A stretch of 33,684 nt of DNA from contig SDWO01000130.1 in the NCBI GenBank assembly GCA_004195325.1, positions 1 through 33,684 of the forward strand, given 5' to 3'. The translations under genes were made by a program, and so were the position numbers. The DNA is from Candidatus Izemoplasma acidinucleici. Lineage in GTDB: Bacteria > Bacillota_I > Bacilli_A > Izemoplasmatales > Izemoplasmataceae. Below the pieces are notes generated by a model. The model was not told the DNA's origin and did no database searches. It saw only the letters and a program-made list of their open reading frames with translations. Positions 1 through 33,684 of this stretch are shown piece after piece (position 1 is the stretch's first letter; each line of letters starts with the position of its first letter).

Positions 1-348
1 AAGGATTAAACAGTTTACTACGATTAAACTTAAGAATGTTCCTAAACTAATATATAAATCGTAAAGTTTCCATTCCATAAAGATTTCTAATATTGTAACC
101 AATCCTGCGATTATAACAATAAATATTGGAATACGTACTTCTTGAGGTACATAGTTTCTGATTAACGAAATAATCAAGTTACTAAATACTAGTACGAGAA
201 TTACTCCTGCACCCATTCCTAGTGCGTCACTTACAACAGATGTAACTGCCAATGTTGGACACATTCCTAAGAATTGTACGAATGTAGGATTTTGTTTAAA
301 GAAACCATTTGTGAAAACTTGCATATGAGACTTTTGATGTTTTGCCAT
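1..348 (-). CDS. rnfE: Rnf electron transport complex subunit E (partial)
   Basis: Integral membrane subunit of the ion-translocating Rnf complex; RnfA and RnfE form the two related six-helix subunits. I translated the minus strand from ATG at 348. It begins MAKHQKSHMQV and contains the family signatures NGFFKQNP, QFLGMCPTLAVT, LGMGAGVILVL and VRIPIFIVIIAG. About 116 residues are visible, covering the first three or so membrane segments; the C-terminal part lies beyond base 1. The start overlaps the rnfG stop (TAATG), and its AGGAGGT ribosome binding site lies inside the last codons of rnfG, so the two are translationally coupled. RnfA is a close homologue, but the cytosolic N-terminal extension and the GMGAGV motif favour RnfE. 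Subunits A and B presumably follow outside the window. Confidence 0.9.
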   Translation of the reverse strand, partial: MAKHQKSHMQVFTNGFFKQNPTFVQFLGMCPTLAVTSVVSDALGMGAGVILVLVFSNLIISLIRNYVPQEVRIPIFIVIIAGLVTILEIFMEWKLYDLYISLGTFLSLIVVNCLIL

Positions 349-2645
349 TAGTTTCCACCTCCTACGGTGTTATCTTCATGATATTGTGCGATTGCTTCAA
401 GAGCTGATCTCATACTACCTGTTGTAGTAGTTACTCCGGCCCATGAATCAATGTTTACTTGTGTAGCTGTTATACTACTAATTTGAATATTTTCATATAA
501 ATCCAAGAATGTAGATGTATTAAATTCTTCTGAACCTGAATAATCAGCGTATTCTGAAGCTGATGCTTCATCCCATGATGAAATGTCGGAAATAATATAC
601 AGTGTTTGTGTTAACCCACTATTATCAACACCCCATGTGTATTGAGCATTTAAGAAACTCCCTGGAGCATATCCATAGTACACATAACCAATAACGTTAC
701 TGTTTACATCCAATGCTTCATAGATATTTCTAATTCCACCATCAAATGGGAAATCTATATATACTTCATTAAATGAATCTGCAGTTGGATAAGCTGCCTG
801 TAAATTACCATTTGCAGTTGTCTGTGAAGCAGGTCTAGCAAATTCTAATCCTAAAACTTCTTCGACATAATATCTTGCTACATCTCTAACGCTAATTTCG
901 ATTGCTCCACCAGTAAATGATGAACCAGCAATAGAATCAATATCGTAATTAGCAGTCTCAACATCTATTCCTATATATTGAAGACCGTATGCGTCTAAGA
1001 AATATCCATCTCTAAATCCTTGCGTATCTGTACTATCTAATAAGACAAACCCTTGGAATGTTTTATCAGTATTGATTGCCAACAAGAATGTGTTAACTGT
1101 ATTTCCAGATGCGATGTTTGCTCCGCCACCATCGGCAACAAAGATATATCCTAATACTGCATCTGATCCGTCTTTCACTTCATAAGTACCAACGATCAAT
1201 TCATCAACAGTATTTAGTGATGTAACATCAGTAATACTACCAAATCCTGGATATAAGATTGAAGCTTCAATTGTTACTCTGTCTAATAATGTAGGTTCCA
1301 CTTCTATAATCGGTAATTTGTCCATGAATTCAACTCTATAGAATTGAACAACGTTCCATAACCCATCACCAAGTGCATTAGATGTGTAAGTAGCTCCACC
1401 AGGAGCATCTATTTGACCATACATTGCCAAGATGTGATTCATGTTTGTAAATTGTGCTAAGTATTCTTCTGCTTCTATTTTATCACCGATACCATCAGTA
1501 TCTCCTTGTGATATAATAATTAATTCATTAATATTATTTGTTTCTCTGTCGAATTCTATTGAGAATTTAATAGTACTTCCATTTTGGAACCCAGGTACTT
1601 CAACAGTCAAGTTAACTAGTAAACTGTTTTCTTCGACTTTAGTAATTCCTGTGTTTCCTAAATAGTAATCTGTAGTAGTATCTACTATAGGTTCAACGTA
1701 AGGAACAAATCCTTCAATTGTTTCTCTGTGGTATAAATATACTTCTTCAAATGTTTTTTCAAATTTACCTAATGTTGATGGATAAGTAGCTCCACCTAAA
1801 TCATCAAAATTATTATTCATTGCATCTTCAATTGTCATATTTAAGAATTGCTCTGCAAATTCTGAATCTGCGATATGAGCACCATATATATCAGTGTCAT
1901 TTGCTTCAATAATTGATAATGATTTGATTGTGCTATCTGCCTCATTAACTGTGAATTTGTAAGTTGTTGGAAGATTTGTATATCCGATAAATTCAACAGT
2001 ATAAATATACTCTACTAAGATTCCATCTTTTTGAACTTCTTCAACTGACAATACACTGCTTGGTAAATCACTTAAGGTATCAGTAATATCAGTAGTTACA
2101 ACACCTAGGAATACATTGTTATGGAATTCAATTACTTTATTGAAACTATCTTTCCAACCATTAGTTGTGAAAGTAGCTCCAGCAATTCCATCGAAGTTCC
2201 CTGCTGATAAATCTGAAATAGTAAGTCCCTCTAATTGAGTCCAATAAGCTGGATCTCCAAGTTTGATACCATAACCTGGGGAATCCTTAGCTGATAATGT
2301 TTTGTATCCTGTTACATTTCCAAGTTCATCAAATCCGAGCATATAGATGTTTCCTTCTTCGAATCCTTTGAACTCAGCTTGGTAAACATATCCAAGTCCT
2401 TCATAATAATAAATTCCAGTAATTCCAGTGTCACCAACGTCTAATGTTTCATCTTCATCTAACGCGTTTAACACTGCGATTGGATGAATTGCTGCACCTT
2501 CCAATACTTCATCTTTTGCTTCATTAGCTCTTGCAGCTGCTGCTAATTCGATTTCTCCTCGTAAATTATCTTCAACTAGGAATACAGAAACCATCATTAC
2601 CACAACTACAAATGTAAGAGTTAGAACGATTTTAATATGTTTCAT
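348..2645 (-). CDS. rnfG: Giant multi-FMN RnfG-like subunit with five FMN-binding-like repeats
   Basis: Sits in the rnfG slot (rnfD-rnfG-rnfE) but is 765 residues, where ordinary RnfG has about 200. One N-terminal membrane helix (about residues 4-24) is followed by an extracytosolic part with five consecutive FMN_bind-like units. Each ends in a flavinylation-type motif: GATFT (T158), GATYP (T287), GATYT (T419), GSSFT (574-578) and GVTTTT (737-742). Units 1-3 keep the G-A-T of the S/T-G-A-T motif in which ApbE attaches FMN to Thr; units 4 and 5 are degenerate. The repeats are diverged (about 100-145 residues apiece), so this is old tandem duplication and not an assembly repeat. It starts at an ATG overlapping the rnfD stop (TAATG), with AGGAGGGA upstream. 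Likely role: pass electrons from RnfD/E through several covalent flavins outside the membrane. Confidence 0.88.
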   Translation of the reverse strand: MKHIKIVLTLTFVVVVMMVSVFLVEDNLRGEIELAAAARANEAKDEVLEGAAIHPIAVLNALDEDETLDVGDTGITGIYYYEGLGYVYQAEFKGFEEGNIYMLGFDELGNVTGYKTLSAKDSPGYGIKLGDPAYWTQLEGLTISDLSAGNFDGIAGATFTTNGWKDSFNKVIEFHNNVFLGVVTTDITDTLSDLPSSVLSVEEVQKDGILVEYIYTVEFIGYTNLPTTYKFTVNEADSTIKSLSIIEANDTDIYGAHIADSEFAEQFLNMTIEDAMNNNFDDLGGATYPSTLGKFEKTFEEVYLYHRETIEGFVPYVEPIVDTTTDYYLGNTGITKVEENSLLVNLTVEVPGFQNGSTIKFSIEFDRETNNINELIIISQGDTDGIGDKIEAEEYLAQFTNMNHILAMYGQIDAPGGATYTSNALGDGLWNVVQFYRVEFMDKLPIIEVEPTLLDRVTIEASILYPGFGSITDVTSLNTVDELIVGTYEVKDGSDAVLGYIFVADGGGANIASGNTVNTFLLAINTDKTFQGFVLLDSTDTQGFRDGYFLDAYGLQYIGIDVETANYDIDSIAGSSFTGGAIEISVRDVARYYVEEVLGLEFARPASQTTANGNLQAAYPTADSFNEVYIDFPFDGGIRNIYEALDVNSNVIGYVYYGYAPGSFLNAQYTWGVDNSGLTQTLYIISDISSWDEASASEYADYSGSEEFNTSTFLDLYENIQISSITATQVNIDSWAGVTTTTGSMRSALEAIAQYHEDNTVGGGN

Positions 2646-3772
2646 TATAAAATCCCTCCTAACGTAACTACTATTGCATTAATGCTTGATTCTTCTATTT
2701 GTCCTTTTAACATAAATCCAATAATGAATGTTACTCCAACAACAGCAATAGTGATACCTACTAATGTTTTGAGTAATGCTTTTTTATTTGAATGCTTTAC
2801 AGTTCTATTTAAGAATGGAGTTATCATATTACCAAATAATACGGCATAGATTAATCCTTCTACATTACTACTTAATGTTCTAAATACCATCATTAAGATA
2901 GCGACTGTAACTGCGTAAATTAATTTTGTTTCTCTTGATGTTGGTGTGCTTACTGTCTCACTAATAAAGAATACTGCACCAAATACTGCAAGTCCGGTAA
3001 CGATATTAATTAAAACATAACCTAAAGCCATTTCTCCAAAACCAAATATGATAAATCCAATACCTAGTGACATTACTAATACAGTAAGTAAATAAGTCCC
3101 ACTGATACGTAAGTCAATTACTTTTGTAACACATAGATAAGCAAATAATAAACCAAGCACAGCTACACTAGTACTTCCGATACTTATTGATTGATAATTA
3201 CCAATGATTAATGGCAATACACTTTGAAGTTCAAATGTTGTGTTTGTTGTGATTGCTAATTTAAGTGTTTCTAAAGGTGTAACAATATCTGAAGCTAAGT
3301 GTCCAGCTCCAAATGCACTAAAAGCAAACAATGCTCCTACAAGTGCAGGGTTGAAGATGTAGAATCCATATCCTCCAAATACTATTTTACCAATGTATAC
3401 TCCAACAAATACAGCCAGTGCTAGTACAAAGATTGGAGCGTTAATTGGTAATAATAATGCGATTAAGATCCCTGTGTTAATTGGATCTACAAATCCTTTA
3501 TAAGAACTGAATTTTGAAGTATTTCCTTCACTTAATGCATAGAATAATTCAATCACAACACTGATAACTGATGCGATTGCGATCATTGAAAATACTTTGA
3601 ATGATTGTTCTAATCCTGATGTGAATAATGTAACATCTGGGTATGTGTAAAACCCGTTTAAGATGACTGCTGCTAGTGCAGCTATAATTAATGCGATGTG
3701 TAAGTTTAGAGAACGTTTGTAAGTATGCTCACCGTTAGTAACGATAGGAGGCTTTTTAGTAACAAATTTCAT
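2645..3772 (-). CDS. rnfD: Rnf electron transport complex subunit D
   Basis: Polytopic membrane subunit of Rnf (NqrB/RnfD family). Signatures are GGYGFYIFNPALVG (about 133-146), the SIGSTSVAVLG stretch (about 197-207) and ETVSTPTSRETKLIYA near 272-287, which corresponds to the family's TxPxT...G segment. It has about nine or ten hydrophobic helices. The family's covalent FMN motif D-x-x-S/T-G-A-T-P-L appears here only as DIVTPL (D162-L167): the threonine is present but the preceding S-G-A is gone. I chose the second of two adjacent ATGs (3772) because it lies 7 nt from the AGGAG of TAGGAGTGATATG; the first (3775) is also possible. The TAG in that string is the rnfC stop. Confidence 0.9.
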   Translation of the reverse strand: MKFVTKKPPIVTNGEHTYKRSLNLHIALIIAALAAVILNGFYTYPDVTLFTSGLEQSFKVFSMIAIASVISVVIELFYALSEGNTSKFSSYKGFVDPINTGILIALLLPINAPIFVLALAVFVGVYIGKIVFGGYGFYIFNPALVGALFAFSAFGAGHLASDIVTPLETLKLAITTNTTFELQSVLPLIIGNYQSISIGSTSVAVLGLLFAYLCVTKVIDLRISGTYLLTVLVMSLGIGFIIFGFGEMALGYVLINIVTGLAVFGAVFFISETVSTPTSRETKLIYAVTVAILMMVFRTLSSNVEGLIYAVLFGNMITPFLNRTVKHSNKKALLKTLVGITIAVVGVTFIIGFMLKGQIEESSINAIVVTLGGIL

Positions 3773-3782
3773 CATATCACTC

Positions 3783-5000
3783 CTATCCAACACGACGTTT
3801 TGCACGTCGTACCCATTCTAATACGTTTATATTTGATGGACATGTATATGTGCATAATCCACATTCTATACATGCACCTGTATCTAAATCTACAATTCGT
3901 TCGTTTACGTTTCTCATCTCAGCATCCATTATGTTCTGAGGAAGGATTCCTACAGGACATACATCATTACATTCTCCACATTTTGTACAAACATCTTCTT
4001 CTAATTCTATATACTCTTGGAAATTAATTGTATCAACATTTAATGTGATACTTGTTTCATCTGTTGTTAATTGGTTTCCTGTTGTGAAACTTCCGTAATG
4101 TAACACCATTTCGTCAACTTCATTATATCCACCAAGGTCAGAAACAATTTCAGATAATTTCGTTCCGACTACTACTTCATAAATAACATTTTCTTTTATC
4201 CCATCACCTGTGATTGCTACTTGTCTTGAATTTGATACTTTTCCAAGGACAACTGCATCGTAAACTATTTTAGCTGTATCTACTTTGACGTATAATACTC
4301 CATCACTAAGTAAGTCTGGTGAAACTGGTTTTTTGATTAATTTTGAAATAACTTTAACATCAGATCCATTTACTTTTTGTAATTTAACAGTTTCAAGTCG
4401 CATGTCTTTATCAACGATTGCTTCCCCTAAACTATTAAAGGCAAATGGTTCCATATCTTTATCTGCGATTACTGTTACAGTTTCAGCGTTTGCTGCAACT
4501 TTTAGTAATTCAATACCTTGTGCAATGTGTTCTGCATATTCGTTCACAAATAAGTAATCTGTTTTTAAGAATGGTTCATTTGTAAATGAAGCATTCACAA
4601 CTACATGTTTGATTGGTCTATCAAATTTAAGAGGAGTAAATATTCCATCTACATTTATTTGTTCCAACCCTAATTCTAGTAGTCTAGCTCTTACTTGAGA
4701 AGTTGATGCATTTTCAAATGCTTTTAATTCTATTTGATTGTCTTCCATGTTATTTTCGATAACACAGTGATCTACAGTTTTACCAAAACGATCTTGTAAT
4801 TCTTCAAACCCTTTAACAGTTCCACTCACACTAGAAATAACTGGTAATTTGATTTGACCTTTATATTTATATCCAAGGACAGTTCCTACTAATACTGCGT
4901 CGCCTTCTTCTACTTTTACGTTGGCGATTTTGTATGTTGGATCTGTTAGAGGAAGATAAACAAATTTAGGTTCTAAATAACTTTTATATTCGTTAATCAT
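3783..5000 (-). CDS. rnfC: Rnf complex subunit C, atypical NADH/FMN site
   Basis: Peripheral cytosolic subunit of Rnf, about 405 residues. It has an N-terminal barrel-sandwich region, a Rossmann-like region, an SLBB-type region (about 277-312) and two C-terminal [4Fe-4S] motifs (C338/341/344/348 and C377/380/383/387), ending VRRAKRRVG. In ordinary RnfC, as in NuoF, a GGAxFPT motif binds FMN/NADH and is followed by NGAECEP. Here the equivalent segments read VDGIFTPLKF (117-126) and NASFTNEP (136-143), so the glycine-rich loop and the ECEP motif are lost. The protein may therefore accept electrons from something other than NADH; the hydrogenase gene is directly upstream. The start is ATG 5000 behind AGGTGA; a GTG at 5009 lies within that ribosome binding site. 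Confidence 0.88.
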   Translation of the reverse strand: MINEYKSYLEPKFVYLPLTDPTYKIANVKVEEGDAVLVGTVLGYKYKGQIKLPVISSVSGTVKGFEELQDRFGKTVDHCVIENNMEDNQIELKAFENASTSQVRARLLELGLEQINVDGIFTPLKFDRPIKHVVVNASFTNEPFLKTDYLFVNEYAEHIAQGIELLKVAANAETVTVIADKDMEPFAFNSLGEAIVDKDMRLETVKLQKVNGSDVKVISKLIKKPVSPDLLSDGVLYVKVDTAKIVYDAVVLGKVSNSRQVAITGDGIKENVIYEVVVGTKLSEIVSDLGGYNEVDEMVLHYGSFTTGNQLTTDETSITLNVDTINFQEYIELEEDVCTKCGECNDVCPVGILPQNIMDAEMRNVNERIVDLDTGACIECGLCTYTCPSNINVLEWVRRAKRRVG

Positions 5001-5009
5001 ATTATTCAC

Positions 5010-6788
5010 CTATTCCTTTGTGAAACCTTTTTGAGTGTAATGTGTATGCAAGTATTTGTGAGCGACTTTACTATTTGGTTCTTCTAAGAAGTCTTCGTAC
5101 GCTTCCAATACTGCTTTGTTCTCGTGTGATTTTCTAATTGGTAAATCAGTGCTGTCTTGATCGTATAGACTTTGTGATCTTCTTTGTATAACTTCATGCA
5201 TTGGAATATCGTTTGTGATTGGCATTCCACCACCATTTACACATCCACCAGGACAAGCCATGAATTCTATGAAATGATATTGTTTCTTACCAGCATCTAA
5301 TATTTCATACATGCGTTTAAGTGCTGATCCACCATGAACTACCGCAATGTTAAGTTTTATATTTGTTTTAGGTAATTTGATCGATGCTTCTTTGATTGTT
5401 CCTTCATAATCTTTACTAAATGATACTCCACGAACATCATGGAATTCTACTGATTCTAAAGGGACACCTTCTAAGATTTCATACACACTTCTTAAAGCTG
5501 CTTCTGCAACTCCTCCAGAAGCTCCAAATATCGTTCCTGCTCCACTAAACTGAGCAAGTTGTCCTCCAAGTTCTAAATCTTCTAAACGTTTGAAGTCGAT
5601 ACCTTTTCGTTTTATCATCTTAGCCAATTCTCTTACTGTTAATACTGCATCAACATCACGTACGCCATCAACTTCCATTTCTTCACGAGAAATTTCATAT
5701 TTCTTAGCGGTACACGGCATAATTGATACTACTGCTATATTTTCTGGTTTTTCATCTAAATATTTTTTTCCGTAATAAGCTTTAATCATTTGACCTTGCA
5801 TCATATGTGGAGATTTAGCAGTTGATAAATTTTCCATATATTCAGGTTTGTACATTTCTGTATATCTAACCCATGCAGGACAACAAGATGTGAACATTGG
5901 TAATGTTCCACCATTTTTAATGCGCCCGATTAGTTCAGTACCTTCTTCTAAAATAGTAAGGTCCGCTGCCCAGTTTGTATCTGTTACTTCGTCAAATCCA
6001 AGTAAATCTAAAGCTCTATACATTTTACCTTGTGTCTCTCTAACAGGAGTTCCGATATCATATCCGAATTCTTCAGCTAGTGAAGCACGTACTGCAGGAG
6101 CTACTTGTACAAATACTTTTTTGTTTTGATCTTTTAATAACGATTCCACTTTCTTAATGTGGTCCGTTTCATATAGAGTACCCGTTGGACATGTTTTAGT
6201 ACATTGCCCACAAAAAATACATCCAGCCTCATCAAATGCAAGACCTGGAGTTGGAGATACGATAGGGTTGATTCCATCATCATCTCTAAATTTTAATACT
6301 TTAGCAGTTACAACTTCACTACATACTGCAACACAACGTTTACATAAAACGCATTTGCTTTGATCTTGTGAAATACCTGTCCCAAAGATTTTTTCTGGAT
6401 TTCTCCCAATCCCTGGACCAAATTCTTCAAAGACAACATCATTTGCTTTTAGTAAATCGTAGAATTCACACATTCCATCTTTTGGACATCGCCAACAATC
6501 GAATCTATGTTTTGCCGCAAGTAATCCTAATGTCGTTCTTCTTGCTTTTATAACATCATCTGAATCAGTTTGAATCACCATTCCGTTTACAACTTCTGTG
6601 TTACAAGCTGACACTAAATCTTGTTCTCCTTCAACTTCTACTACGCAGATACGACAGAATCCGATTTCATTGATTTCCTCAATGAAACATAATTTAGGAA
6701 TCTCTATACCAATACTCTTTGCAGCTGTAAGGATAGTTGTGCCATTTTTTACTTTAAGTTCAATACCATTTATTGTAATTTTAGCCAT
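5010..6788 (-). CDS. hydA: [FeFe] hydrogenase, group A, NuoG-like N-terminus
   Basis: Catalyses reversible H2 oxidation/proton reduction in the cytosol. Domain order over 592 residues: [2Fe-2S] ferredoxin-like domain (C34, C45, C48, C62), His-Cys3 [4Fe-4S] site (H94, C98, C101, C107), two [4Fe-4S] ferredoxin motifs (C146-C156 and C190-C200), then the H-cluster domain with all three motifs: TSCCPAW (300-306), MPCTAKKYE (358-366) and MACPGGCVNGGG (510-521). This is the modular layout of clostridial HydA and of the alpha subunit of trimeric HydABC. No HydB or HydC is nearby except the small Fe-S protein upstream, and rnfC follows 9 bp downstream with its ribosome binding site overlapping this gene's TAG. 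The context suggests direct coupling to Rnf or to the ferredoxin pool it uses. ATG 6788 follows TAGGAGG. Confidence 0.96.
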   Translation of the reverse strand: MAKITINGIELKVKNGTTILTAAKSIGIEIPKLCFIEEINEIGFCRICVVEVEGEQDLVSACNTEVVNGMVIQTDSDDVIKARRTTLGLLAAKHRFDCWRCPKDGMCEFYDLLKANDVVFEEFGPGIGRNPEKIFGTGISQDQSKCVLCKRCVAVCSEVVTAKVLKFRDDDGINPIVSPTPGLAFDEAGCIFCGQCTKTCPTGTLYETDHIKKVESLLKDQNKKVFVQVAPAVRASLAEEFGYDIGTPVRETQGKMYRALDLLGFDEVTDTNWAADLTILEEGTELIGRIKNGGTLPMFTSCCPAWVRYTEMYKPEYMENLSTAKSPHMMQGQMIKAYYGKKYLDEKPENIAVVSIMPCTAKKYEISREEMEVDGVRDVDAVLTVRELAKMIKRKGIDFKRLEDLELGGQLAQFSGAGTIFGASGGVAEAALRSVYEILEGVPLESVEFHDVRGVSFSKDYEGTIKEASIKLPKTNIKLNIAVVHGGSALKRMYEILDAGKKQYHFIEFMACPGGCVNGGGMPITNDIPMHEVIQRRSQSLYDQDSTDLPIRKSHENKAVLEAYEDFLEEPNSKVAHKYLHTHYTQKGFTKE

Positions 6789-6797
6789 AATATCCTC

Positions 6798-7151
6798 CTA
6801 ATATTTTTTTACAGGTTGATATAGTGTATTGTAATTATTTTCAAGTACTACCTCGAAGTTCTTACCAATATCTAACCCGACACTGCATCGAGAGCTGCGC
6901 AAGTTGTAAGTTAATTGCTCAAGTTCTTTTAAAGTCTTAAGCGTTGCTGTCTCGTTAGTATACATATCTAATAGTTGTTCCATGCGAATAACACCATCAC
7001 GACACGGCGTACATTTACCACAAATTTCAGGATGCTGTCCAACTAAGTAGCTTTTCATATTCTGTACTAAATCTTGTTCACTTAGTTTAGTTTCTGCATC
7101 AAGAATCCAACTCTCAAATAATTCTTTAACATTTTGAGACTCTGTACTCAT
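6798..7151 (-). CDS. Orphan NuoF-type C-terminal [4Fe-4S] domain protein
   Basis: A 117-residue protein that corresponds to only the Fe-S domain found at the C-terminus of NuoF/HydB (NADH-dehydrogenase F iron-sulfur region). It carries C44-G-K-C47-T-P-C50-R and a fourth ligand C89 in SSRCSVG, with the usual helix bundle between. The FMN/NADH-binding and SLBB parts of NuoF are absent. It is the first gene of the leftward hydrogenase-Rnf operon, and its TAG stop forms part of the hydA ribosome binding site (TAGGAGG). It probably forms a small electron-transfer subunit joining the hydrogenase to a partner. ATG 7151 is chosen because AGAGGTG lies upstream; a longer in-frame reading to 7220 would run through the promoter. 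Confidence 0.85.
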   Translation of the reverse strand: MSTESQNVKELFESWILDAETKLSEQDLVQNMKSYLVGQHPEICGKCTPCRDGVIRMEQLLDMYTNETATLKTLKELEQLTYNLRSSRCSVGLDIGKNFEVVLENNYNTLYQPVKKY

Positions 7152-7188
7152 TGCGTTCACCTCTTTCTGTGTATTCCATACTGATAAC

Positions 7189-7197
7189 AGTATAGCA
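7189..7197 (-). promoter_or_regulatory. Extended -10 promoter of the hydrogenase-Rnf operon
   Basis: The minus strand reads TGCTATACT, an extended -10 element, about 38 bp upstream of the first ATG. No good -35 hexamer is seen at 16-18 bp, only T-rich sequence. It lies in the divergent spacer between the hydrogenase-Rnf operon and the rightward lipoprotein genes. Confidence 0.6.
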
Positions 7198-7277
7198 AAA
7201 TCAGGTGCAAAAATAAACACATTATTATATATTAATTATAATTAAAACATTAAAATAATATTATATATATGAAAGAG

Positions 7278-7315: not shown

Positions 7316-8134
7316 ATGAAGAAAATATTATTGCTTCAATTGGTGCTTTTCTCAGTTCTTTTAACAGGTTGCAAAGAAAAATATCCTTTGGAAGAAGAGC
7401 CAGAATTAATAGAAATAAATTCAGAAGATTTCATTACAATGGACATGTTAGATCAATATATGGAGAGATCAGATGTTCAATATGTAGATTTAAGAAATAT
7501 TGATGCTAAATTCAATAGTGGATATATTAGATTTTTTGAATCCATTCCGTTTTTTGAGTATTTAGATAACAGAGCTTTTGTTAGAAATGGAACTTACGAG
7601 TTTAATGCTGACCAAATTATAAACGAGCATATTATAAAAGGGATTTTTGACAAGGAAAAAGCAATATTCTTGTACGCTGATGGATGTGTTAGAAGTGGGT
7701 ATCTAAGAGATGTTCTTTATCACCTTGGATATGAACGAGTTTATATTCTAGGTGGGTTTTACGAGTATGAAGGTGAATACAAAGTTCTTGGGGATGGGTC
7801 CTTTAACTTAGGTACTTCTAGTTATTTAGTCCACGTTGCAAACGATGGTATAACATACCGTCTAGGTGCTACATACGATATGACTAAATCGATAATCGGT
7901 CTTCGAATTGATATCGTAGATTCAGATGGTATATCAATGAGAAGTGAAAATTATAGCAACACAGTAAATTACAATGAGCAGTTGACCATATTAGAGGATT
8001 ATATCGTTTCTCAATATACAAACCTCTACACAGTTCACTCTTACTTATCAGATGATATCTTAGATAATTACGATGATATTGATGGGTATTCACTAGGATT
8101 CGATCAAGACCTTATTGCCTTGTTTGGTAAGTAA
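7316..8134 (+). CDS. Rhodanese-domain lipoprotein with unknown C-terminal domain
   Basis: A 272-residue predicted lipoprotein: signal peptide with lipobox LLTGC, lipidated at C19. Residues about 42-155 look like a rhodanese domain: YVDLRN (56-61), a conserved-type strand IFLYADGC (117-124) with candidate catalytic C124 in the loop CVRSGYL, then GYERVYILGGF (138-148). Such domains carry sulfane sulfur on the cysteine. The C-terminal ~110 residues match nothing I recognise. The gene is divergent from the hydrogenase-Rnf operon and next to two flavin-related lipoprotein genes, so a surface redox or sulfur-handling role is inferred. The start is set by GGAGG 9 bp upstream and by the signal peptide. 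Confidence 0.8.
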   Translation: MKKILLLQLVLFSVLLTGCKEKYPLEEEPELIEINSEDFITMDMLDQYMERSDVQYVDLRNIDAKFNSGYIRFFESIPFFEYLDNRAFVRNGTYEFNADQIINEHIIKGIFDKEKAIFLYADGCVRSGYLRDVLYHLGYERVYILGGFYEYEGEYKVLGDGSFNLGTSSYLVHVANDGITYRLGATYDMTKSIIGLRIDIVDSDGISMRSENYSNTVNYNEQLTILEDYIVSQYTNLYTVHSYLSDDILDNYDDIDGYSLGFDQDLIALFGK

Positions 8135-8242: not shown

Positions 8243-8995
8243 ATGAAAAAATTAGTATTAGTATTGATTACATTGTTTATAACAGTTACGCTTTCTGCAT
8301 GTTCAGATTTATGCATTGGGGAATCATGTATATCTGAAACTGAAGTTATAGTTGAAGATGAAGATGAAGTTGAAGATGAAGAAATCGTTGCTTTAGAAAA
8401 TGTATTATATTATGATCACATCGACGGATTTGGTCTTCTAGATTTAGACCATGAAGCTTACATTCTATTTGAAGAGGAACTTCAAGGATATGTGAAATAT
8501 CAAGTTGCATATTTATCTTGTACTTGTAGAAATTCAAACGTTAACTACTGGCAAGTCATATATGTCGAAGTTAACAAATACACTGATGACGTTAGAGTAA
8601 TCTCGTTTGGCTATGATGATCCATCAGCTGAGCATCCATACTTAGCAGGTATGTGGGGAGATAGTTCACCAACTCCAGACTCTACTATTGAGGGTGGTGG
8701 AACAAAACCAGGTAAGACAACTGAAGATTTTACTACAATGTACATACCATGGTTATTAAACAAAACAATTGAGGACTTTGAAGGAATATCAGTATTCACA
8801 AACAAAGTTGGTGTTGGAGAAGTTTATGAAGGATTAAATACAGTAACAATCAATGATGCCTTTTATACAGACCCTGACACTCAAGAAGAAATAGATTTAA
8901 TTGATTCATTTAGTGGAGCTAGCGTTTCAACTAATAACATCATTCGTATTACAAAAACAATTCTTGAATATCACGAAGAGCATTACGGTAATTAA
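8243..8995 (+). CDS. FMN-binding-domain lipoprotein (predicted ApbE substrate)
   Basis: A 250-residue lipoprotein: signal peptide ending LSAC, lipidated C20. An acidic linker follows (about 32-48, mostly E/D). The body carries an SCTC motif (C93, C95) followed by RNSNVNYW, and residues about 140-246 end in an FMN_bind-like segment with DSFSGASVST (221-230). D-x-x-S-G-A-S/T is the site type that ApbE flavinylates, here probably on S227 or a nearby Thr/Ser. Further cysteines C24 and C29 lie next to the anchor. The ApbE gene is the next gene, which supports covalent FMN. It is likely a surface-tethered one-electron carrier, a possible partner of the multi-flavin RnfG. It ends in a strong terminator. 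Confidence 0.82.
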   Translation: MKKLVLVLITLFITVTLSACSDLCIGESCISETEVIVEDEDEVEDEEIVALENVLYYDHIDGFGLLDLDHEAYILFEEELQGYVKYQVAYLSCTCRNSNVNYWQVIYVEVNKYTDDVRVISFGYDDPSAEHPYLAGMWGDSSPTPDSTIEGGGTKPGKTTEDFTTMYIPWLLNKTIEDFEGISVFTNKVGVGEVYEGLNTVTINDAFYTDPDTQEEIDLIDSFSGASVSTNNIIRITKTILEYHEEHYGN

Positions 8996-9071: not shown

Positions 9072-9097
9072 AACTTTGTTTGAGAGGAATGATACAT

Positions 9098-10453
9098 ATG
9101 AAAAGACTACTTAGTCTATTATTAATTGCATTATTAGCAACAACTCTATCAGGTTGTAATAAAGAAGAAACATTACCTGACGAATATATATTTGAACTAA
9201 TAGGTACTCCGAGTGTTACATTACAGGTTGGAGACAATTTCGTAGATAAAGGATACATTGCACGTTACAACTTAGAAGATGTAAGCGGCAGCGTAACTTC
9301 TTCTAGTGATGTAGATACCACAAAGATCGGAACTTATAATCTTACGTATTCACTTGATCATAAAGGAAATACAATGTCATTAACAAGAACTGTTATCGTA
9401 GAATATGAGGATGTATATTGTTCAGATGTTTTAGATACAGACCTAACTGACACTGGATATGATAAATGCCAAGTAACATGGACTGAATTCTTAAATACAT
9501 ACGTTACATTGTCTATGTATGTACCAAATGATAATTCAATTGACTTAGGCGAAATAAAAAGCAATGTACAAACTATCTTAGCTTTATATACTATCATTAG
9601 TGATAAGTACACTGAATATGAATATATTGTTAATGTTTGGACAATAAATGAGAATCCAACACAGATACATACAATTTCAGAAGACTTATTCAATTTAATT
9701 GATTACACATTATTTGAACAGACAGATTTAGTTGATTTCTACAACGCTGCTCTAGAACCTGTATTAGAACTTTGGCATGACGCCAGAGAAGCTTGTAATC
9801 CTGAAGAGGTGTGCATTTTACCAGATATTGATGCATTAAATATAAGAAACCAGTACACAGATCCAACAAAGATTATTATGGATCGTGATAACTTAACAAT
9901 AACTATGGAAGAAAACATGGGTCTTGATTTGGGTGGTATAAGTAAAGGATATGTTTCACAACTAATCGTTGATTATTTAGAGACTACAGGACTTTACGGA
10001 TACATATTAAATAACGGACAATCAAATGTAAGTGTAGGTGGTATCAATCCACGTACCGATGATGGAAGTTTTACTATCGCAGTTACAGATCCAACTGATC
10101 CATACGATATAGCTCAGAAATACGGATACGCATGGGTGAAATTATTTGATGGAGAACAGTTAGTTACTTCTGGAGATTACCAAAAATTCTTTGAAGTTGA
10201 TGGAACAATTTATCATCACATAATTGATCCAGTTACGTTATTCCCGTTAAACCATACACGTGCAGTAAGTATAGTAACAGATAACGCTGCATTAGCAGAT
10301 TTATATAGTACAGCGATTTTCAATATGACACTTGAAGATGGAATTGCATTTGTTAATGACATTCCTGGTTTAGAAGCTATCTGGTATGAAACAGATGGAA
10401 CCATTGCTTACAGTGCTAATTTTGAAGATGATTATTTACAAGAATTAAGATAA
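9098..10453 (+). CDS. apbE: ApbE-family FAD:protein FMN transferase, lipoprotein with Ig-like domain
   Basis: Transfers FMN from FAD to Thr/Ser of extracytosolic flavoproteins; the candidate substrates are RnfG (leftward operon) and the lipoprotein just upstream. It is 451 residues: lipobox LSGC (C20); residues about 30-103 an Ig-like/DUF5011-type domain (QVGDNFVDKGY); ApbE domain from about 125 on. ApbE signatures: LDLGGISKGY (276-285), a GG-type strand ILNNGQSNVSVGG (303-315), HHIIDPVT (373-380), and the metal-site region D395-N-A...D401-L-Y-S-T405. An N-terminal Ig-like domain is uncommon for ApbE and may space the enzyme from the membrane. I chose ATG 9098 over upstream TTG and ATG codons because only it starts a proper signal peptide and lies 10 bp from GAGAGG. 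Confidence 0.92.
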   Translation: MKRLLSLLLIALLATTLSGCNKEETLPDEYIFELIGTPSVTLQVGDNFVDKGYIARYNLEDVSGSVTSSSDVDTTKIGTYNLTYSLDHKGNTMSLTRTVIVEYEDVYCSDVLDTDLTDTGYDKCQVTWTEFLNTYVTLSMYVPNDNSIDLGEIKSNVQTILALYTIISDKYTEYEYIVNVWTINENPTQIHTISEDLFNLIDYTLFEQTDLVDFYNAALEPVLELWHDAREACNPEEVCILPDIDALNIRNQYTDPTKIIMDRDNLTITMEENMGLDLGGISKGYVSQLIVDYLETTGLYGYILNNGQSNVSVGGINPRTDDGSFTIAVTDPTDPYDIAQKYGYAWVKLFDGEQLVTSGDYQKFFEVDGTIYHHIIDPVTLFPLNHTRAVSIVTDNAALADLYSTAIFNMTLEDGIAFVNDIPGLEAIWYETDGTIAYSANFEDDYLQELR

Positions 10454-31182: not shown

Positions 31183-33600
31183 TTAGAAGTCATACCTGCT
31201 CATTATTTGTGATGGGGTCTGTCTTAGTAGTGATGTTATTGGTATCATACCACTTATAATATTAACTACATAAATAATTAATATACCTGTCGCGAAACTA
31301 AGTGGAGATATTTCTACTACTTCGATTATTCCTGCTGAAGCATCCATTATTTTTAGAATAACATAGCTTACAAGCATATATCCAATCATTGATGTGAATG
31401 TAGTAATCATCAATATTTCTATTAAGAATAACTTCTTAAGATCTCTCTTTTTAGCTCCTAATGCTCTATAGACACTCACTTCATATATTCTAGATAATAA
31501 ACTAGAACGAAGAATAAAGAATGTTGATAAGGCAGAGGCTAATAAGAATATCCCGGCAAATGTTAACGATCCGATTGCTTGTTGGATATTGAAACTTCTT
31601 TGTAGAGTAGTTTGTTCTAAGTAGACATCGGTCGCATCAATGTCAAGCTCTGAGAAATACGATATTGTTTTCTCTTTATCTGTTGAATATAAATCTAAAC
31701 CACTGAAAATCATATCGGTTAATCTAGATTCAATTATCGCTTGTTTGATATGGTCTTTTAAGAACAATACATCCGGAATTGTTTCAGATGCTGTAAATAG
31801 TAAGTCTGCATCATGTCTTTCCTCAAATAAGAATACATATTTTAACAAAGGATCTGTAATACTATCAGCTATGATGATTTCCCCAAATGAAATTGAAGAT
31901 ACATCAAGGTCTAATTCATCTTCAAACATTTCATATATTGCTCTGTTTGTTGACATACTTAGTATTGTTTCCTCTGTTGCGTAAAAGACTGGATTATCTT
32001 CTCTAGTAATTCCTACAATGTCAGCTTCTATCTCAAACTCAACATTATCAAATCCTTTTACTGTATACGTTATTGATAACGTTAAGAAATCTTCTACATT
32101 AGTAATTCCAAATGTAGAATAACTACTATTATTTCTCATTAACTTCATCAAGTATTCCTCATTAACTACTATTTGATTATGACCGGTGATTCCAACGCCG
32201 TATACGATGTCAGACTCGTCTAAGTATTCATCAGGTACACCACTGTATGATGCATAACTATCATATCTGTTTTCTTGATACACCTTAGGGAGAGTAATAC
32301 TAAATGCGCTATTCGTTGTTACATTAACAAATCCAATATGATTTAGATCTTCTAAATCTAAAATATCTTGATAAGTATATGTCTCGGGTATATCAACGTT
32401 AATCGTTTGGACTGGCTCATTATAGTATTCGTGAACATCTAAATTGAAGACATTAAATATCATACTAATAGCTAAGGCTATAAATCCAGACAATACAATA
32501 AACATGAAGTTCATAAATTTAACACCACGTTTTTCATCTCTAAATCTTCTAAACCCAAGTTTGATTGAATCTTTAACACTTATTGCATTGAACTTTGATG
32601 TTTTATGAGATTCATCAATTATCTGTTCTAAGTCGAACGATTTTTCTTCAACGAAGTATTCTTCATCTCTTTTGATAGTTTCATCATAAATCTTAATTTC
32701 AGAGTTGCTATCGATTAAGTTAATACGTTTATATTTATCTGAATCAATGTCAACGTACAATGTTTTATTTCTAACAATTAATCTAACATCAATTTTTTCG
32801 TTTGCATCTTCATCAGTGAATATTGTATATGATTTTGATTTATCACTAAAGTTTACAACCTTGTTAAAATCATTTAAATAGATATCTGTTTCTAAAGTAA
32901 CTTGACCTGATCCCGTAGATATATGCTCGTCATCACTAAAGATTTCTCCATCTTTTAATTCGATAATTCTATCTCCGAATTGTGTTGCTAGATGTCTTTC
33001 ATGAGTTACTAGAACAACAAGTTTTTCTTTAGAGATACTTTTTATGATGTTCATAATATCATATGTGTTTTTACTATCTAAGTTCCCTGTTGGTTCATCA
33101 GCAATGATTATCTTAGGGTTCTTAGCTAGCGCTCTTGCGATAGCGACGCGTTGTTGTTGCCCTCCACTTAATTGTGAAGCTTTACGTCTCTTATATTTTT
33201 CCATACCCATTTGTTCAAGTATGTAATCAACACGTGTGTCTATTTCCTCTTTATCATAAATTCCAACCATGTTTAATGTTAAAGATATATTATCTCTAAC
33301 AGTCATATCATGAATCAAATTATAGTTTTGGAATACGTAACCAATATGTTCGTTTCTGATTCCGTCCCATTTATTTGGACTGTATCTATCCATCTCGATG
33401 TCATCAATTTGAATAAGTCCAGAGTGAAGTTTATCTAACCCACCAAGTACATTAAGTAATGTAGTTTTACCACTTCCTGATGGTCCTAGTAAGATTACTA
33501 ATCCTTTTTGCGGTAGTTCTAAATTTATATCGTTTATTACATGTATTTCGTTTGATCTATTCTTATTAAAATACTTCTCTAAATTCGATAGTTTTATCAT
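31183..33600 (-). CDS. MacB-like ABC transporter, ATPase fused to FtsX-type permease
   Basis: 805 residues. ATPase (1-225): Walker A GPSGSGKT (39-46), signature LSGGQQQR (144-151), Walker B IIIADEPTGNLD (164-175). A poorly conserved linker (about 230-350) follows, then a permease with one membrane helix, a large external domain of about 270 residues and three C-terminal helices with an RALGAKKRDLKK cytosolic loop, as in MacB/FtsX exporters of peptides or lipoproteins. The start is ATG 33600 behind CAGGAG; a longer frame that runs into the last 18 bases would translate sequencing adapter (MYKRQ). Confidence 0.92.
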   Translation of the reverse strand: MIKLSNLEKYFNKNRSNEIHVINDINLELPQKGLVILLGPSGSGKTTLLNVLGGLDKLHSGLIQIDDIEMDRYSPNKWDGIRNEHIGYVFQNYNLIHDMTVRDNISLTLNMVGIYDKEEIDTRVDYILEQMGMEKYKRRKASQLSGGQQQRVAIARALAKNPKIIIADEPTGNLDSKNTYDIMNIIKSISKEKLVVLVTHERHLATQFGDRIIELKDGEIFSDDEHISTGSGQVTLETDIYLNDFNKVVNFSDKSKSYTIFTDEDANEKIDVRLIVRNKTLYVDIDSDKYKRINLIDSNSEIKIYDETIKRDEEYFVEEKSFDLEQIIDESHKTSKFNAISVKDSIKLGFRRFRDEKRGVKFMNFMFIVLSGFIALAISMIFNVFNLDVHEYYNEPVQTINVDIPETYTYQDILDLEDLNHIGFVNVTTNSAFSITLPKVYQENRYDSYASYSGVPDEYLDESDIVYGVGITGHNQIVVNEEYLMKLMRNNSSYSTFGITNVEDFLTLSITYTVKGFDNVEFEIEADIVGITREDNPVFYATEETILSMSTNRAIYEMFEDELDLDVSSISFGEIIIADSITDPLLKYVFLFEERHDADLLFTASETIPDVLFLKDHIKQAIIESRLTDMIFSGLDLYSTDKEKTISYFSELDIDATDVYLEQTTLQRSFNIQQAIGSLTFAGIFLLASALSTFFILRSSLLSRIYEVSVYRALGAKKRDLKKLFLIEILMITTFTSMIGYMLVSYVILKIMDASAGIIEVVEISPLSFATGILIIYVVNIISGMIPITSLLRQTPSQIMSRYDF

Positions 33601-33604
33601 AGTC

Positions 33605-33666
33605 TTACTCCTGTCCCAAAGCTGTAATAACGCTTGTGTTAAATATGCGTTTATTAAACCTTGTTC
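33605..33666 (-). CDS. Possible 3' end of an upstream gene (partial)
   Basis: The minus strand of the last genomic bases has an open frame ending ...FNTSVITALGQE with TAA at 33607-33605, 4 bp before the ABC transporter start, whose GGAG overlaps it. That fits the tight spacing of genes here, but only about 20 codons are visible, so this may be chance. Confidence 0.35.
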
Positions 33667-33684
33667 CTGTCTCTTATACACATC
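33667..33684. other. Sequencing adapter (Tn5/Nextera mosaic end), not genomic
   Basis: The last 18 bases, CTGTCTCTTATACACATC, are identical to the Nextera transposon-end adapter and lie at the very end of the contig. They should be trimmed. They also create the false N-terminus MYKRQ on the minus strand. Confidence 0.97.

Follow-up and report, generated by a model that had tools for sequence, protein, structure and literature searches.

A hydrogenase-linked Rnf locus with a five-unit RnfG-like protein in Candidatus Izemoplasma acidinucleici

The Rnf complex is usually taken to be a ferredoxin:NAD+ pump. In the stretch of DNA analysed here (the window; 33,684 nucleotides of contig SDWO01000130.1 of Candidatus Izemoplasma acidinucleici, a wall-less bacterium of sediments), an Rnf operon encodes an RnfG of 765 residues, and a first-pass annotation made from the sequence alone had proposed that its repeated units would make Rnf a longer-range carrier of electrons outward from the membrane. 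Two questions arise: how many of these units could carry a flavin, and whether the complex around them is still an ordinary Rnf.

Units and flavinylation sites of the long RnfG

The gene (348..2645, minus strand) lies in the rnfG slot as had been noted, flanked by rnfD (2645..3805) and rnfE (1..348). Its product matches the Pfam FMN_bind profile with 83.5 bits (cut-off 22) in four separate stretches and has an N-terminal membrane helix at about residues 2-28 (2562..2642, minus strand; seen in the sequence, with a helix at 2-47 in the AF2 model). Both are features of RnfG; more than one FMN-binding domain is found as in multi-flavinylated proteins. Against the NCBIfam rnfG model TIGR01947 the protein scores 64.4 bits, under the cut-off of 102, so that by this measure it is a divergent, RnfG-like subunit.

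Units were counted with two HMMs that left out the window protein. The first, trained on 49 units of relatives, finds five stretches of 51-101 bits, compared with 5.4 bits for the best of 200 shuffled sequences. The second, built from the first units of 13 relatives only, also finds five, at 116, 57, 49, 31 and 15 bits. Units 1-4 stand far above the 200 shuffles with either HMM; unit 5 does so only with the all-unit HMM, scoring just 15.2 bits with the first-unit HMM versus 9.4 for the best shuffle. An AF2 model built from 8 sequences (mean pLDDT 66.6, pTM 0.33), in which the placement of the units relative to each other is not reliable, contains five copies of a fold made of four strands with a helix at the end; a single-sequence model was discarded (pLDDT 33.7). 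Profile search and structure prediction thus bear out the five tandem FMN-binding-like units of the first-pass annotation, giving five FMN_bind folds. Identity among the units is 18-31%. Judged by the model, unit 1 is of the RnfG fold, its best structural matches being A. woodii 9eri_G (Z 15.0) and C. tetanomorphum 7zc6_G (Z 14.5); the VIA-align fold search was informative mainly at residues 2-184, 197-249 and 336-433 and barely covered units 4 and 5.

All units are encoded on the minus strand. Unit 1 (residues 84-179; 2109..2396) has the site T158 in DGIAGAT and the ring motif DSPGYG, unit 2 (residues 212-308; 1722..2012) has T287 in DDLGGAT and DTDIYG, and unit 3 (residues 347-440; 1326..1607) has T419 in DAPGGAT and DTDGIG. 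In unit 4 (residues 498-594; 864..1154) the site is S576 in DSIAGSS and the ring-side motif DTPGYG is altered to DTQGFR, while unit 5 (residues 652-759; 369..692), with T739 in DSWAGVT, contains an insertion and has lost the ring motif (SSWDEA). A 2025 review gives the flavinylation motif as D-x-x-[S/T]-G-A-[S/T]. The fourth position is A, G, G, A and A in units 1-5 and never S or T, so that in all five units agreement with the strict motif begins at the glycine. The GAT sites at T158, T287 and T419 are intact, and the sequences GSSFT and GVTTTT of the last two units read as claimed. Calling these two degenerate was correct in that GSS and GVT differ from GAT, but too strong in that the Asp at -6 and the S/T acceptor are kept at both S576 and T739. 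According to the same review, in a tested protein A-to-V mutation left about 50% of the flavinylation, T-to-S cut it by 10-55% and D-to-A had little effect; its passages on mutagenesis do not mention A-to-S. Given the published A-to-V effect, unit 5 (GVT) and unit 4 (GSS) may be partly modified, and by analogy S576 and T739 would be weak rather than dead sites. We confidently predict flavinylation of three sites by the neighbouring ApbE flavin transferase (9080..10453, plus strand; N-terminal Ig-like domain, Bact_surface_Ig-like); the fourth and fifth are probably modified in part.

Units 4 and 5, perhaps also units 2 and 3, could instead be redox-inactive spacers or docking domains, leaving RnfG with one to three FMNs. 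Nearly all last units have lost the ring-side motif and have GVS or GVT instead of GAT, which points this way. So do four units with Pro at the acceptor position (G005, G027 twice, L045), a reading that may partly be alignment, and one unit of G008 with Glu there. On the other hand, the acceptor column is S or T in 48 of the 54 units, the A-to-V protein of the review retained about half of its flavinylation, and one relative (G022) has a canonical last unit. We consider such a role a serious possibility, somewhat short of even; for units 4 and 5 the role may be a structural one. It is compatible with both the conduit and the energy-converting hydrogenase discussed below.

Long RnfGs (E up to 1e-10) occur in 17 of the 90 genomes of the order, all in one family, and the named matches are MAGs labelled Candidatus Izimaplasma, Mycoplasmatota/Tenericutes, Bacilli or Bacillales. 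Most have four units, three were counted in G010, G027 and G083, and five in the window protein and in G082; the count of five is correct but not unique. The third unit of G005 is truncated, the G036 protein is cut by a contig end and G032 is a fragment only. A tree of the units was built from few columns, and many of its forks are open. It unites 12 of 13 last units in a single divergent clade (100/99) and has separate clades for the penultimate (99/95) and the middle units (99/98). Of the window units, unit 3 falls with the middle ones and unit 4 with the penultimate ones, while the long-branched unit 2 has no settled place. The end and middle clades suggest old ends and a middle of variable number. 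The last unit of the G022 RnfG (L035, residues 533-627) is unlike all other last units: it is canonical (DTPGYG, SGAT), groups with first units and was likely replaced by recombination.

The operon and its comparison with ordinary Rnf loci

The operon, on the minus strand, has the order NuoF fragment-HydA-RnfC-RnfD-RnfG-RnfE. Its first gene (6798..7220, start probably nearer 7157) encodes a C-terminal 4Fe-4S fragment of NuoF without the NADH/FMN part. A HydA-like [FeFe] hydrogenase of group A (5010..6788) follows, and then an RnfC (3783..5009) that keeps both 4Fe-4S motifs and has lost GLGGxGFPT and ECEP. RnfD is without the covalent-FMN motif D-x-x-x-G-A-T. The N-terminal part of rnfE is cut by the contig end and continues through an identical overlap on contig C141, which carries the operon on with rnfA and an rnfB of 101 aa, so that all six Rnf subunits CDGEAB are present (contigs C119 and C141). 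Divergent from the operon, on the plus strand, are genes for a rhodanese-like lipoprotein (7316..8134; Cys in YADGC; Rhodanese 22.1 bits, narrowly missing the cut-off of 22.2), an FMN_bind-like lipoprotein (8243..8995; site DSFSGAS, conserved SCTCR; FMN_bind 16.3 bits, below the cut-off of 22) and ApbE. The two lipoproteins were identified as such by their lipoboxes. At the contig end, positions 33666-33684 read gatgtgtataagagacag on the minus strand, presumably a Nextera adaptor remnant, and the first codons of ORF 31183-33681 would then be an artefact.

The gene set recurs in relatives as far as their contigs reach. Part of it is found in G103, from another family of the class, where a three-unit RnfG has an Ig-like insert, and the order NuoF fragment-HydA-RnfC is fixed in the two families. 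Among the 90 genomes of the order, the NuoF fragment is present in 17/17 with a long RnfG and in 1/73 others; in that exception (G034) the contig ends before rnfG. Among 395 genomes sampled from the class, 15 have a stand-alone NuoF fragment (E below 1e-20), and among 392 from the phylum 7 do; the two samples overlap, and the fragments are always in the same two families. In G091, of the same family as G103, a cluster (L086, contig C22, 3429-16259) combines a NuoF fragment, an RnfC without the NADH motif, NuoE, NuoF and cydAB with rnfDGEAB, including a one-unit RnfG, and has two HydA-like proteins without a complete H-cluster site.

An ordinary Rnf lies on contig C84 of the window genome, with GLGGSGFPT and NAVECEP in RnfC, DGNAGAT in RnfD and a one-unit RnfG of 204 aa; two Rnf complexes in Izimaplasma strains were noted with a published draft genome (PMC6256511). 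The comparison covered 17 hydrogenase-linked and 23 ordinary loci, the latter comprising 20 hand-picked from RnfC_N matches together with L036, L038 and L050; the hydrogenase-linked loci L108-L110, read later, are outside these counts. The RnfC motifs GGxGFPT and ECEP are present at none of the 17 hydrogenase-linked and all 23 ordinary loci (in L097, L098 and L101 the regex missed them and they were read by eye). The RnfCs of solved structures carry these motifs (GxGGxxFPT, ECEP), which we take to serve NADH and FMN. An RnfD Thr with Asp at -6 is found at 1/17 hydrogenase-linked loci versus 23/23 ordinary ones, the one being G091, which is also the sole hydrogenase-linked locus with a one-unit RnfG. 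In the window RnfD (SDIVTPL) the Thr is kept while the Asp at -6 and the GA are lost. Since the Thr (TPL) persists in 14 of the 16 altered RnfDs, covalent FMN is doubtful there rather than excluded; in G103 and G124 (family f5) Tyr replaces it. RnfG has at least three units at 15 of the 16 hydrogenase-linked loci showing rnfG (the contig of L085 does not reach the gene), compared with 0 of the 22 ordinary loci with a unit found (none was found in L089).

Two-unit RnfGs stand beside ordinary RnfC and RnfD in several genera (L098, L100, L101). Family f3 (L036, L038, L102-L105) has an extra RnfG-like gene of one or two units; in L036 and L102-L105 this encodes 378-586 aa with two units and lies just before a one-unit rnfG. 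At another locus of the window genome (L051, G000:C95, 4644-10154), cydA-cydB are directly upstream of rnfD-rnfG-rnfE-rnfA-rnfB and there is no rnfC; in its RnfD, IPL stands where the flavinylated Thr would be, RnfG has one unit, and a Rnf-type complex working with cytochrome bd is possible. The two-unit RnfGs of ordinary loci and the cyd-linked RnfD weaken the view that a higher unit number is always accompanied by loss of the RnfD motif, and the link is not strict. Nor is a short RnfB special to the long-RnfG complex, as we had considered. The 101-aa RnfB of the locus is without the ferredoxin-type C-terminal domain, the other RnfBs of the genome have 110 and 113 aa and those of ordinary loci 95-132 aa (short RnfBs at L053:10533-10838, L050:10288-10620 and L051:9813-10154); at every Rnf locus type of the lineage where it was found, RnfB is only about 95-132 aa long, with a single Fe-S motif and without the ferredoxin domain. 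A further RnfC-like protein (L052, G000:C39, 112-1440), presumably of PduS type by its context, keeps GAGGAGFPT.

The proposal that Rnf itself becomes a longer-range carrier did not survive this comparison. With an RnfC lacking the NADH/FMN motifs, an RnfD lacking the covalent-FMN motif and a hydrogenase module upstream, the complex is instead a divergent paralogue, and on its sequences the locus resembles another kind of machine, assembled from the parts of Rnf. It could still be an ordinary Rnf with the multi-flavinylated RnfG described in 2021 and the hydrogenase as a mere neighbour: the rnfCDGE(AB) order and the family matches are as in Rnf, and the class is published (Meheust et al. 2021). 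We find this improbable, because all 17 RnfCs have lost the NADH/FMN motifs, the hydrogenase genes keep their fixed place before RnfC in two families, and the genome has its ordinary Rnf elsewhere.

The hydrogenase module and a putative route outward

The window HydA scores 463.5 bits against TIGR02512 (cut-off 405.95), and its H-cluster motifs TSCCP, MPC and ACPGGC, read from the alignments, are intact. The 16 N-terminal Fe-S ligands are all kept in 17/17 HydAs, a set outside which the second HydA-like protein of G091 was placed. At the H-cluster site, 6 of the 17 (window, G006, G020, G027, G103, G124) have the first L1 Cys and 13 the second; both columns were counted because the solved A. 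woodii HydA1 has TSCSP. HydG was found over the cut-off in 17 of the 19 genomes searched, including the window genome, and was not found over it in G020 (88% complete) or G091 (97% complete). Fe_hyd_lg_C has three matches in the window genome, with proteins other than this HydA among them, so HydG alone is no sign of a live HydA. We rejected the view that every such module works as a hydrogenase, given that the first L1 Cys is lost in 11/17 HydAs and that G091 has no HydG over the cut-off. Ligands kept throughout, compared with a first L1 Cys kept in about a third, mean that the wire is better conserved than the hydrogenase, and this suggests that the common function is that of an electron wire and not H2 chemistry.

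With a probability of about 0.5, we believe that the product of the locus is a transmembrane electron conduit derived from Rnf and distinct from the ordinary Rnf, leading from H2/ferredoxin to an external FMN chain. From the units, sites, motif losses and retentions and gene set we infer complex formation, flavinylation, an outward direction and an acceptor. The HydA-type protein, the NuoF fragment and the RnfC without its NADH/FMN site would be joined in one input module, a cytosolic Fe-S chain, and electrons would pass between H2 and/or ferredoxin and RnfD via RnfC. Outside the membrane they would be taken up by RnfG unit 1, which would meet RnfD and RnfA/E as the RnfG unit does in the known Rnf shuttle described in a review. 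The further units, with FMNs attached by the neighbouring ApbE, would lead electrons away from the membrane to the FMN lipoprotein and on to an extracytosolic acceptor.

It speaks against the conduit that the complex still has RnfB, RnfA and RnfE, the latter two with their [2Fe-2S] Cys, so that electrons may still take the U-shaped, ion-pumping path. The complex could then be an energy-converting hydrogenase, in which electrons pass from ferredoxin through RnfB, RnfA/E, RnfG unit 1, RnfD and RnfC to HydA and H2, pumping Na+ or H+, with the extra FMN units as a buffer or side branch. Six Rnf subunits with these Cys, the intact H-cluster motifs of the window HydA, HydG in the genome and the fermentative H2 formation reported for the group (PMC8397711) speak for such a route. 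However, it would have to pass an RnfD whose covalent-FMN motif is gone at 16/17 loci, with Tyr for Thr in G103 and G124, and end at a HydA whose H-cluster site is altered in 11/17 cases while the operon is kept, G091 combining an altered HydA with no HydG match over the cut-off. RnfB is also without its ferredoxin domain, although the ordinary RnfBs of the lineage are likewise. We regard this route as unlikely, if credible.

The FMN lipoprotein proposed to follow RnfG in the conduit is present in 15/17 genomes with a long RnfG versus 11/73 others, and its occurrence in genomes without the complex counts against the conduit. Next to the long RnfGs it has mostly GSS/GAS-type sites. Pairs of rhodanese and FMN lipoprotein without the complex (L111-L114) lie near thioredoxin-like or small FMN_bind lipoproteins, which hints at extracytosolic thiol or sulfur chemistry. 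In the zrk13 growth paper, thiosulfate promotes growth with no obvious up-regulation of sulfur genes; thiosulfate as acceptor is only a lead. A more specific version of the conduit would be a hydrogenase-type Rnf respiring onto an extracytosolic sulfur or thiol acceptor, with up to five FMNs passing electrons to the FMN lipoprotein (conserved CTC motif), which would work with the surface rhodanese, and with the H-cluster loss in part of the family marking a hydrogenase that is becoming an Fe-S wire for the export chain. This is a speculative proposal, which we think is quite unlikely to be right as a whole.

If the conduit exists, a branch of Rnf has been rebuilt at both ends, with a hydrogenase-type module for NADH and a flavin chain for the single external FMN. 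Its natural variants, with one to five units and with or without a live H-cluster, would then help to decide if electrons can leave the complex through RnfG, and a fermentative, wall-less lineage would have a heme-free route of extracellular electron transfer.

Relation to known systems

Multi-flavinylated RnfG has been known since 2021, and the window protein is a further member. Meheust et al. (2021, eLife 10:e66878) described RNF clusters whose RnfGs likewise have several FMN_bind domains and proposed a second path to external acceptors. The words 'hydrogenase' and 'rhodanese' are absent from the main text of that paper, and the clusters may stand in its Supplementary file 1; loss of the RnfC and RnfD cofactor motifs goes unmentioned in its passages on them, whereas both motif sets are lost here. 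A hydrogenase-linked Rnf with these losses was not found in the literature searched, which lacked most subscription papers, and within that literature the novelty lies in the complex around RnfG.

Compared with the Rnf complex (7zc6, 9eri, 8ahx), the locus shares subunits C, D, G, E, A and B, their order and the RnfG fold of unit 1. It differs in the added HydA and NuoF fragment, the five-unit RnfG, an RnfC without NADH/FMN motifs, an RnfD without the covalent-FMN motif and an RnfB without a ferredoxin domain. The bifurcating HydABC [FeFe] hydrogenases and the Bfu family, in which HydA homologues are used for other substrates, also combine a HydA-type subunit with a complex-I-type Fe-S chain (Front Microbiol 2022, 13:946711), whereas of NuoF the locus has no more than the C-terminal cluster domain (116-140 aa), an NADH site is absent and the partner is RnfC. 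Tandem FMN domains are found in SaFMN3 and CbFMN4 too, for which 3 and 4 covalent FMNs were shown (BBA Adv 2023, PMC10339131); these are not RnfG and consist of near-identical repeats, in contrast to the divergent units of the window protein. The two-subunit Nqr/Rnf-like systems (Huang et al. 2024, mSystems) likewise have an RnfD-type subunit without the flavinylation site, and one-way outward flow was proposed for them. They fuse an NAD(P)H reductase domain to this subunit, whereas the RnfD here matches only PF03116 over the cut-off, without a fused NAD-binding PF00175, and would be fed by a hydrogenase-type Fe-S module via RnfC. The loss of the RnfD-type site in these outward systems and the published outward branch of multi-flavinylated RnfG are parallels for the proposed conduit.
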